From NCBI RefSeq assembly GCF_000337335.1, contig NZ_AOJN01000049.1, forward strand, positions 277,885-341,884: a stretch of 64,000 bases of DNA, given 5' to 3'. Each line of letters opens with the position of its first letter. Within the stretch, counting starts at the first letter, position 1. The notes beneath the pieces are model-generated. The model ran no database searches and was not told where the DNA came from. It was given only the letters and a program-made list of their open reading frames with translations. Shown here in pieces: positions 49,053 to 53,232 of the stretch. The translations under genes were made by a program, and so were the position numbers. Source of the stretch: Halorubrum distributum JCM 10118 (lineage in GTDB: Archaea > Halobacteriota > Halobacteria > Halobacteriales > Haloferacaceae).

Positions 49053-49997
49053 TTAGTACTCGATGGTCGCGGAGTACCGATTCAGAGCGGCCACGAGCCC
49101 GGCGCCGACGAGCGCCGCCAGCGCGAACCGCGGCGCGGCCGCCCGCCAGGACTCGCCGCTTTCGGCCAGCCGCGCGGACACCTCCACCAGCGGCGCGCGA
49201 AGCGCCCCGACGACCAGGCTCACGAGGAACGCGAGCGTGGCGGCCCGCGCCCGCGACAGGGCGTGGCGGACGGCGTGGGCGATGGTGAAGAGCCCGACGA
49301 CGCCGCCGAGCAGGAACGTCGCCACCGGCGGCAGCGTCTCGACGAGCGCGTCCGCGCGGTTCCCGAGCGCGAGCGCGCCGGCGGCGTCAACGAACCGCGC
49401 GACGACGCCGGACATGTACTCGTACTGGCCGAGGACGATGAGCAGCAGCGAGCCCGAGATCCCCGGGAGCACCATCGCGCTGACGGCGAGGCCGCCCGCG
49501 ACGAAGACGACCGGCAGCGGGCTGCCCAGCGCGGTCGCGGCGACGCCCGACGCGAGGAAGGCCAGTGCGAAGCCCGCGATCGCGGCGGTCTTCCGCCGGA
49601 GCGTCGAGAGGTCGACGTCGCCGAGCAACACCGCGGCGCTCGCCGCGATCAGCCCGAAAAAGAAGCCGTGCGTCGCGACCGGGCGGGTCGAAAGCAGGTA
49701 GTTCACGCCGCTTAACACCGTGACGACGGCGGTACCGATCCCGGCGCCCAACATGAGGAGGAACGCGCCGTCGACCTCTCGGAACGCGGCCCGCGCGTCG
49801 TCGCGGCTACCGGGTCGTACGCCGGCGAGCACGCGCCGCACCCGAGCGGGGTCGATCGCGGTGACCGCCGCGATCAGGCGCTCGTAGATTCCGACGATCA
49901 GCGCGATGGTGCCGCCGGAGACGCCCGGCACGGCGTCGGCGCTCCCCATCGCGATCCCCTTCAGGTAGATCGTCGCCCATTCGCGGAGGTCCGCCAT
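49053..49997 (-). CDS. DUF368 membrane protein (polyprenyl/dolichyl phosphate translocase candidate)
   Basis: 314 aa with about eight to ten hydrophobic segments. Family signature near the N-terminus: GSADAVPGVSGGTIALIVGI, and a matching inverted-repeat half ASAMVLPGISGSLLLIVLGQ. Bacterial DUF368 proteins (PopT) recycle undecaprenyl phosphate across the membrane. Placed beside aglB, this one probably returns dolichyl phosphate to the cytoplasmic face after N-glycosylation. Confidence 0.9.
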   Translation of the reverse strand: MADLREWATIYLKGIAMGSADAVPGVSGGTIALIVGIYERLIAAVTAIDPARVRRVLAGVRPGSRDDARAAFREVDGAFLLMLGAGIGTAVVTVLSGVNYLLSTRPVATHGFFFGLIAASAAVLLGDVDLSTLRRKTAAIAGFALAFLASGVAATALGSPLPVVFVAGGLAVSAMVLPGISGSLLLIVLGQYEYMSGVVARFVDAAGALALGNRADALVETLPPVATFLLGGVVGLFTIAHAVRHALSRARAATLAFLVSLVVGALRAPLVEVSARLAESGESWRAAAPRFALAALVGAGLVAALNRYSATIEY

Positions 49998-50082
49998 CTG
50001 CTCGCACGAAGCGCAGCCGAAGTAAAGAAGGGTGGGATCGAACGACGGCGTCGCCCGCGCTGCGCGCGGGTCGGCGTCCGCG

Positions 50083-53000
50083 TCAGTTCGGTGCGGTCGC
50101 GGTCGTCACGGTCGTCGTCGCGGTCGTCGCCGCCGGCTCGACGCCGATCAGCGACCCCGCGTCCGTCGAGTTCGTCGTGTTACCGCCGTCGCTTCCGCTA
50201 CCATCGTCGACCGGGCACTCCGAGTCGCCGCTCGGGCAGTCGATGATCTGCTCTTCGAGCTCGACCGTCGCCGCCGAGTCGTCTTCTCCGACGACCTGTC
50301 CTTCGGTCACCTCGACCTGCCCGACGCGCTGGGTGGTGTACAGGTCGTCACCGGTCGTCTGTTCCGTGGTGATGTTGTACGGGCCGGTCGCGCGGACGCT
50401 GGTGTTCGTGTACCCGTTCTCGGGGCCGAACTCCTCGTACCCGGTCGTCGAGTACGGGAGCGTGAACGCGAAGTTCCCGTCGTCGTCCGCCGTCGCGTAC
50501 TGCGTGTACTCGAACGTCTGGCCGTTCGGCTTCTCCATCTCGACGGTCGCTTTGACCTCCTGGCCGGGCTCGGCGCCCGAGCCCTCGACGGTCGCGCCCG
50601 GCACGCGTTCGAACGTCTTGACGAAGTCGTCGCGGAACGCGCCGAGGAACGACTCGCCGAACGTCGCCTGGAGGTCGACGCCGAACCGTTGCGCGAGGAT
50701 GCTCGCCTGCTGTGCGTACGGCGAGCGACCCGGCGCCTCCGTGGCGTGAACGAGCCGGTAGTGTTCGAGCGCGTCGAGCCGCTCGGAGGGGACGCCCATC
50801 ACGCCGCCGACCTGCGCCGAGCCGTCCTCCTCGACGTACGACCGCGCCGCGGAGAGGTTATCGAACCGCTGGATCGGCTGGCCCTCGCTCGGGAGGACCC
50901 TGATGTCGACCTGCTCGCCGGACCGGGTCTGTGCCGTCTGCGGCTCCCAGTCGAGGACGACCGGCTGCGGCTCGACCGCGCTCCCGTAGTGCTGGTAGAG
51001 CCGGATCATCTGGCTCTCGTGGTAGCGCTGTGTCCGCGTCTGGAGCGCGGCCCGGAGCCCGCCGCCCTGGCCGTTCTGTCCTTCTGTCCGCTGGTAGAGC
51101 AGTTCGTTGAAGTCGCGGACGGTCTCGTTACCGCTGTAGAACGTGACCGGCGCGTTGAACTTGGAGTTCGGCGACGCCATCTGCCAGTCGACCATCACGT
51201 AGCGGGTGTTGTTCCCCTCGGTGCTCTGGCTCGCGAGCACTTCCGCGGCCTCCTCCTCGCTCGGCGCGAGCAGGTAGTCGGCCGCTTCGCCCGCGTTCTG
51301 TTGGAACGGGTTCGCGTTCGGAATGCGCTCGGCGCGCGTGGTGATCCAGTGGCCGTAGTCCCACCACGACTGGACGCCGTAGGCGCCCTCCGGATACTCG
51401 AAGTCGCCGTCGGCCGGCCGTTCGTAGGTGCCGTACAGCTCCATCGGGTTGTCCGCACCTTCGAGCTCGCCCGGCTGGGGCGTCTCGTCGTTCATCCACT
51501 GGAGGCTCTCGTCCCACTGGACGACGCTGCCCGGCTGGCTGGAGTTACCCGCCTGCCAGACCGGCGTGGCGACGCCGACGAGGGGAACGATGAGGATCGC
51601 GAGGACGGCGGCGACGGTGAGTATCTGCCAGCCTTCGATCTCGCGGAGCGCGTCGAGTGAGGTGAGCTCCAGGGCGTCGAGCGCGACTTGGAGGAAGTAC
51701 GCCGTCCCGACCGCGACGACGACGGCGAGGTAGTAGTTGAAGCGGACCTGCGTGAACGCGGCGCTCCCGATGAACGCCGCCCACACGACGAAGTACAGCT
51801 CCTCGGCGTCGTACTCGACGAGCAGCGTCGCGCCGACGAGGAAGGCGGCGGCGATGAGGAGACCGATCACCTGCCAGTCGACGCCAACGACGCCGCCGAT
51901 CGCGCTGTACGCCTGCGGGACGGCGTAGACGGAGCCGACGACCGCGAGCGCGGCCGGGATGTACAGCGTGTGGTTGGTGTCGTCGGAACGGTAGAGCGGG
52001 CGCGCAAGGATGTAAAGCACCGCGGCGAGCGCAAGGAAGAAGGCAAGCCCGTACTGCGAGAGGACGAAGTTCGAGAACGAGGCGCCTTGGAGGGGCGGTT
52101 GTGCCTCGCCAATGGTGCGTGCGCCCGCGCTCGCGGAGAATGCGACGGTGTTGAGGAGGTTATTGACGATCGTCGACCACAGCGACGGAATCGCGAGCCA
52201 GACGACGCCTGCGGACGCGAGAACCAGCCCGCCAACGGCCGCGGGATAGGTGTCGGTACCGAGGTCGCGCGCCTCCCACTGGCGGGCGAGCCACGCCAGG
52301 AAGACGGCACCGAGCGCGACGGCGAGCGGTGTGACGATCTGGAGCACCGAGTACTCGCTCGGTGCGAATCGGAAGGTGTCGAGCGGGATAATCTGCATCA
52401 GACCGGCGACTGTCATTGCCACCGCGCCGGCGAACGCCACCGGTTCCGGGCTCTTCCCGTGGTAGGTGTCGCTCGTGAGTTTGACGGCGAGGAAGATGCC
52501 CGTGAAGCCGACCATCAGGATGCCCGGCTGCCACGTCCACATGTAGAGGCCGAGCGCGACGCCGGCCGCCGCGGCGTAGGCAACGGGTTGCCGGAGCGCG
52601 TCCCAGTCTTGGTCGACGACGAGTTCCCACACCGGCTTCTCGCGTTCCGCCACGCCGAGCGCGACGAGGAACGCGAGGATAGCGGTGCTCTGGAAGAACA
52701 CCTCGGCCACGCTGTGGTCGGGGAATCCGACGAGCGTGTAGCGGAGGAACGTGCCGGAGAACAGCGCCAGCGTCAAGGTGCCCGCGAGTGCGGGAATCCG
52801 GTCAACGAACCGCTGCGCGATGAAGTACGTCGGGACCGCGACGAGCGCGCCAACGATGGGTGCCATAATGAGCATGACCTCCTCGGTGCTGCCCGTGATC
52901 GGCCGGGCGATCCAGACCCCGACGGCCATGATGTGGTCCCAGAGGGTGCCGAACTGGCCGGCGTTCGTCCCGACCGGGAAGCCGGTCCAGACGTCGTACG

Positions 53001-53232
53001 GAAGCGTGCTTGGCCAGTTTTCGAGGAGGTAGTTCGTCGTGCGGAGGTGATACCACGCGTCGTTGCCGCGGAAGTACACCTCACCGTTTTGGATGAAGTT
53101 CCCGTACGAGCGCAGCCGCGTCCACAGCATGAACGCGAATATCCCGAGGAGGACGGGAACGTGGTACCACCGCGCGAGGAGATCGGACGGGGACGAGTCC
53201 GATTCGTCCGGCGGATCGTTCGAATCGCTCAT
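50083..53232 (-). CDS. aglB: Dolichyl-phosphooligosaccharide-protein glycotransferase AglB
   Basis: 1049 aa. N-terminal membrane region with about 13 helices. The first acidic motif region GNDAWYHLRTTNYLLENWP is near residue 60 and VGFPDHSVAEVFFQS near 170. The family signature WWDYGHWITTRAERIPNANP (WWDYG) starts the soluble domain near residue 622. A long beta-rich C-terminal periplasmic region follows, with an acidic Ser/Thr tail. It transfers dolichol-linked glycans to Asn of S-layer and archaellum proteins. Confidence 0.96.
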   Translation of the reverse strand: MSDSNDPPDESDSSPSDLLARWYHVPVLLGIFAFMLWTRLRSYGNFIQNGEVYFRGNDAWYHLRTTNYLLENWPSTLPYDVWTGFPVGTNAGQFGTLWDHIMAVGVWIARPITGSTEEVMLIMAPIVGALVAVPTYFIAQRFVDRIPALAGTLTLALFSGTFLRYTLVGFPDHSVAEVFFQSTAILAFLVALGVAEREKPVWELVVDQDWDALRQPVAYAAAAGVALGLYMWTWQPGILMVGFTGIFLAVKLTSDTYHGKSPEPVAFAGAVAMTVAGLMQIIPLDTFRFAPSEYSVLQIVTPLAVALGAVFLAWLARQWEARDLGTDTYPAAVGGLVLASAGVVWLAIPSLWSTIVNNLLNTVAFSASAGARTIGEAQPPLQGASFSNFVLSQYGLAFFLALAAVLYILARPLYRSDDTNHTLYIPAALAVVGSVYAVPQAYSAIGGVVGVDWQVIGLLIAAAFLVGATLLVEYDAEELYFVVWAAFIGSAAFTQVRFNYYLAVVVAVGTAYFLQVALDALELTSLDALREIEGWQILTVAAVLAILIVPLVGVATPVWQAGNSSQPGSVVQWDESLQWMNDETPQPGELEGADNPMELYGTYERPADGDFEYPEGAYGVQSWWDYGHWITTRAERIPNANPFQQNAGEAADYLLAPSEEEAAEVLASQSTEGNNTRYVMVDWQMASPNSKFNAPVTFYSGNETVRDFNELLYQRTEGQNGQGGGLRAALQTRTQRYHESQMIRLYQHYGSAVEPQPVVLDWEPQTAQTRSGEQVDIRVLPSEGQPIQRFDNLSAARSYVEEDGSAQVGGVMGVPSERLDALEHYRLVHATEAPGRSPYAQQASILAQRFGVDLQATFGESFLGAFRDDFVKTFERVPGATVEGSGAEPGQEVKATVEMEKPNGQTFEYTQYATADDDGNFAFTLPYSTTGYEEFGPENGYTNTSVRATGPYNITTEQTTGDDLYTTQRVGQVEVTEGQVVGEDDSAATVELEEQIIDCPSGDSECPVDDGSGSDGGNTTNSTDAGSLIGVEPAATTATTTVTTATAPN

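Follow-up and report, generated by a model that had tools for sequence, protein, structure and literature searches.

A DUF368 gene kept beside aglB across Halobacteria is a candidate for dolichyl-phosphate recycling in archaeal N-glycosylation

To our knowledge, no protein has yet been assigned in archaeal N-glycosylation to the step that brings used dolichyl phosphate back to the cytoplasmic face of the membrane. A locus of Halorubrum distributum JCM 10118, in which a gene of the DUF368 family follows the oligosaccharyltransferase gene aglB, raises the question whether a protein of this family could perform that step. The stretch of DNA analysed, here called the window, comprises 64,000 nucleotides of contig NZ_AOJN01000049.1. 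The central features are the following, clade I being one of two groups of DUF368 proteins described below:

49053..49997, minus strand: DUF368 / VCA0040-like gene of clade I, 314 aa, predicted polyprenyl-phosphate translocase (PF04018; AlphaFold2 model)
49998..50082, minus strand: aglB-DUF368 spacer, 85 bp (sequence)
50083..53232, minus strand: aglB, archaeal oligosaccharyltransferase, 1049 aa (STT3, AglB_core-like, AglB_L1; TIGR04154; WWDYG motif)
53381..54316, plus strand: aglG, glucosyl-dolichyl phosphate glucuronosyltransferase, divergent from aglB (NF041394)

The preliminary description had placed the DUF368 gene 3' of aglB, on the same strand and at a distance of 85 bp, and this arrangement was confirmed by Pfam and NCBIfam matches together with the sequence, in which 85 bp separate the AglB stop codon from the DUF368 ATG. 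The DUF368 protein reached 205.3 bits against PF04018 (cut-off 26), which according to Pfam makes it a member of the family, and the H. distributum genome has no second PF04018 gene. The AglB protein matched the Pfam domains STT3, AglB_core-like and AglB_L1 as well as the NCBIfam model archaeo_STT3 (TIGR04154; 907 bits, cut-off 450), and the characteristic WWDYG motif is encoded at 51352-51366. AglG was identified by the curated equivalog NF041394 (518.6 bits, cut-off 440), and since aglG is divergent from aglB, the DUF368-aglB pair sits in an N-glycosylation locus. Further along the window, a type I phosphodiesterase-like and a polysaccharide-deacetylase-like gene (55521-57808, plus strand), overlapping by 4 nt, stand downstream of two glycosyltransferase genes and probably belong to the same glycan cluster. 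A 510-aa ORF at 59929-61461 (minus strand) shows the unusual combination of an RmlD-like sugar reductase domain (21-274) fused to a phosphoribosyltransferase-like domain (334-429).

Haloferax and Halobacterium build their N-glycan on dolichyl monophosphate, from which AglB passes it on (PMC4335974). Bacterial DUF368 members are reported to have a role in undecaprenyl-phosphate flipping (PMC9876793, PMC12826051), and in bacteria devoid of DedA and DUF368 proteins free undecaprenyl phosphate (Und-P) builds up on the outer leaflet (review: PMC12826051). Since the glycan is carried on dolichyl monophosphate, AglB should release just that kind of lipid which a PopT-like flippase would carry. We consider it probable that the DUF368 protein of the window is a PopT-like translocase, which returns dolichyl phosphate to the inner leaflet after the transfer by AglB. 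AglB would hand the glycan from dolichyl monophosphate to the protein and leave dolichyl phosphate outside, DUF368 would flip this lipid from the outer to the inner leaflet in one flip with no pyrophosphatase, and the returned carrier would be reused by cytoplasmic Dol-P glycosyltransferases (AglJ, AglG and others). DUF368 is a known family, and its archaeal role is that of a well-supported candidate, for which we infer the substrate, the direction of the flip and the part played in N-glycosylation. The link to AglB probably reflects AglB as the main source of external dolichyl phosphate and not an exclusive partnership.

The protein itself carries two related motifs, one in each half, as is typical of the family:

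49908..49928, minus strand: first motif PGVSGGT, residues 24-30 (P24, G25, S27, G28 and T30 invariant in 65 archaeal homologues)
49449..49466, minus strand: second, repeat-like motif PGISGS, residues 178-183 (P178, G179, S181 and G182 invariant in 65 archaeal homologues)

In the AlphaFold2 model, which is all-helical (pLDDT 95.3), both PGxSG motifs map to breaks between helices. Paired broken helices are common among transporters with internal repeats, and we would read the model in this light. A sequence search found no solved relative of the protein, and Foldseek of the model against the PDB gave nothing significant (best E 0.2); BacA, at an E of 1.0, is no match.

Among the closest known members of the same Pfam family, VCA0040 of Vibrio cholerae, a C55-P translocase candidate (PMC9876793), and the Staphylococcus aureus type PopT, for which an inward flip of polyprenyl monophosphate is proposed, are represented by the NCBIfam equivalogs NF052563 and NF052564 (PopT / Vibrio-type). 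The Vibrio-type model is the nearer of the two to the window protein with 178.7 bits, the PopT model being weaker with 93.7 bits, and both scores lie under the strict cut-off of 400. The carrier of VCA0040 is undecaprenyl phosphate, whereas dolichyl phosphate is proposed here, and no oligosaccharyltransferase link is reported for VCA0040. The gene had also been described as an untested archaeal candidate. This holds insofar as no archaeal deletion was found in the literature covered, but the haloarchaeal DUF368 protein HVO_RS12060 of Haloferax volcanii at least partly complements a V. cholerae vca0040 mutant (PMC9876793). In the literature covered, with most subscription journals outside its range, archaeal DUF368 proteins appeared in complementation work only, with no deletion, lipid or glycosylation assay, and DUF368 was not found mentioned together with AglB.

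Flippases have been proposed before in this pathway: AglR and Agl15 are regarded as dolichyl-phosphate-linked flippases (PMC4335974, PMC3871713), which act outward on glycan-charged carriers, in contrast to the return of the empty carrier proposed for DUF368. It is conceivable that DUF368 itself exports glycan-charged dolichyl phosphate as an outward lipid-linked oligosaccharide flippase. The linkage to AglB would fit such a function equally, and the mechanism of the outward step in haloarchaea is also described as unknown, AglR apparently taking part in it (PMC4335974). However, the bacterial evidence for DUF368 concerns the return of bare Und-P (PMC9876793, PMC12826051) and AglR and Agl15 are already the proposed outward flippases (PMC3871713), and we regard an export function as very unlikely.

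Conservation of the DUF368-aglB neighbourhood in haloarchaea had been set as a check on the recycling role. For this comparison the surroundings of 100 DUF368 genes, about 16 kb each, were inspected in 94 Halobacteria genomes, a non-random sample picked for genus coverage, low scorers and two-copy genomes. Of the 100 sampled loci, 64 had AglB upstream of DUF368 and in the same orientation, and in none was AglB found downstream or on the opposite strand. A quick maximum-likelihood tree of the 100 proteins comprised a clade I with 70 members, 64 of them AglB-linked, and a clade II with 30 members and no linked one; the link label changed seven times on the tree, compared with 29.7 changes in shuffles. 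The pair is retained in 48 of the 52 clade-I genera, far more than chance adjacency would give, and the outcome of the check was strongly positive. The pair is also present in Haloferax, Haloquadratum, Halogeometricum limi, Halonotius, Natronorubrum, Haloterrigena, Natrinema and others; in the Halobellus loci DUF368 was not linked to AglB. Haloferax species other than H. volcanii, in which DUF368 belongs to clade I and lies downstream of aglB, often differ from the window by an aglM-like gene between the two. In Haloferax marinum and two other genera this intervening gene encodes an AglM-like UDP-glucose dehydrogenase on the opposite strand; elsewhere in Haloferax a gap of matching size is seen, except in two species without any. 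The Haloferax agl cluster has been described as ending at aglM, HVO_1531 (PMC3871713).

Gene order may be inherited without functional meaning, and DUF368 might be a general polyprenyl-phosphate or lipid translocase for adaptation to salt or pH. VCA0040 is important when cells face alkaline and sodium stress, and a role in adaptation to high salt has been proposed for it (PMC9876793). Likewise, clade II is never AglB-linked, DUF368 persists in two genomes lacking AglB (see below), and an old synteny of glp genes and a glycosyltransferase surrounds the pair. These neighbours are retained in clade-I genera only about half as often as the pair itself (glp genes in 23/52, a glycosyltransferase 2 gene in 25/52), which speaks against the pair as a mere part of a long conserved block. 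Moreover, the pair is still kept in 14 of the 17 genera in which both neighbours are lost. A salt or pH function with aglB as a mere bystander thus appears rather unlikely, and recycling of dolichyl phosphate is the reading that we prefer.

Whether the two genes form one transcription unit was judged from strand and spacing. They share one strand throughout the linked loci, and of the 77 pairs with a scorable start, to which the spacing count is confined, 14 overlap and a further 18 are separated by no more than 20 nt (together 32/77 at ≤20 nt). In the window, the 85-bp spacer contains one further element:

50020..50029, minus strand: TATA-like element TTCTTTACTT, TTTA at -29 to -26 from the DUF368 ATG, a distance shared by many congeners whose spacers are longer

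This element is a possible promoter of the DUF368 gene's own. Four species of the genus have a spacer of 6 nt, and in most of the other species inspected it spans 24-95 nt, the junctions of two genomes (G147 and G169) being unresolvable. In many of the longer spacers a TTCWTTACC-like element precedes the DUF368 ATG by about 26-30 nt, a distance as expected for a haloarchaeal leaderless promoter, and the short and long spacers may reflect an internal promoter gained or lost. A terminator in the 85-bp spacer was considered and rejected, since the RNA fold did not exceed that of shuffles in strength (z -0.5). An opposite-strand dehydrogenase gene separates aglB from DUF368 in some genera. With the TATA-like element and the long spacers, aglB and DUF368 form at most a putative transcription unit.

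The distribution of the two clades was compared with that of AglB. Clade I only was present in 66 of the 94 sampled genomes, clade II only in 25 and both in three. In eight genomes of one group (f4) with clade II only, AglB directly precedes the gene that lies just beyond DUF368 in the linked genomes of this group. The findings suggest that the linked clade-I copy was lost or replaced where an unlinked clade-II copy exists, and that a DUF368 from one clade or the other is retained in haloarchaea. No partner gene of clade II was common to most genera in the sampled loci. One genome (G323, locus L055) has a second DUF368 gene, of clade II, which is broken into two reading frames; it may be decaying, or the assembly may be at fault.

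Among 391 Halobacteria genomes, PF04018 was detected in 386 and AglB in 385; both genes occurred in 384, DUF368 only in two (G117, G225), AglB only in one (G021) and neither in four, so that 384 of 385 AglB-bearing genomes have DUF368. The co-occurrence is significant (Fisher p 8e-8; 2e-4 with three related drafts counted once), and the statistic rests on few genomes because both genes are near-universal. Co-loss in G186, G205 and G306 was discarded as strong evidence, these being drafts of 160-180 contigs in which one missing stretch would remove both genes. G225 and G117 are nearly complete haloarchaeal assemblies that kept DUF368; three different AglB queries found no AglB in them, save for a weak partial match in G117. 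In G225, DUF368 is located at its usual site beside the glp genes and AglB is gone, possibly a natural loss of AglB. In the rest of the phylum DUF368 occurred in 34 of about 204 sampled genomes, most being without it, and AglB was near DUF368 in none of these 34 loci. The scarcity of DUF368 outside Halobacteria together with G225 indicates that DUF368 is neither needed by archaeal AglB generally nor useless without AglB.

The same reaction has been proposed in bacteria for UptA of the DedA family (PF09335), which is distinct from DUF368 and present in parallel in haloarchaea. VTT/DedA proteins might be mainly responsible for the return of dolichyl phosphate, with DUF368 as a redundant or conditional helper. 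VTT proteins occurred in 25 of 28 genomes tested; the H. distributum genome has three, and G021, the genome with AglB and no DUF368, has two. Against this stands G217, which has AglB and DUF368 and no VTT match, and it is DUF368 that nearly all genomes of the class possess and that is linked to aglB. A main role of VTT/DedA proteins is highly improbable in our judgement.

With recycling by DUF368 as the preferred reading, the DUF368 protein of this Halobacteria-wide pair is the leading and specific candidate for the missing archaeal dolichyl-phosphate recycling step. The candidate is accessible in genetically tractable species such as H. volcanii and Halorubrum lacusprofundi, and an aglB deletion has been made in the latter (PMC10384203). 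DUF368 function may be easier to test in haloarchaea than in bacteria: the monophosphate should come straight from AglB, a pyrophosphatase would not be needed, and peptidoglycan is absent. More tentatively, clade-I DUF368 could be a dedicated dolichyl-phosphate recycling flippase working in step with AglB, perhaps taking the lipid from it directly. We know of no dolichyl-phosphate recycling flippase previously assigned to an N-glycosylation pathway, and a dedicated clade-I flippase would, if confirmed, be the first such protein.
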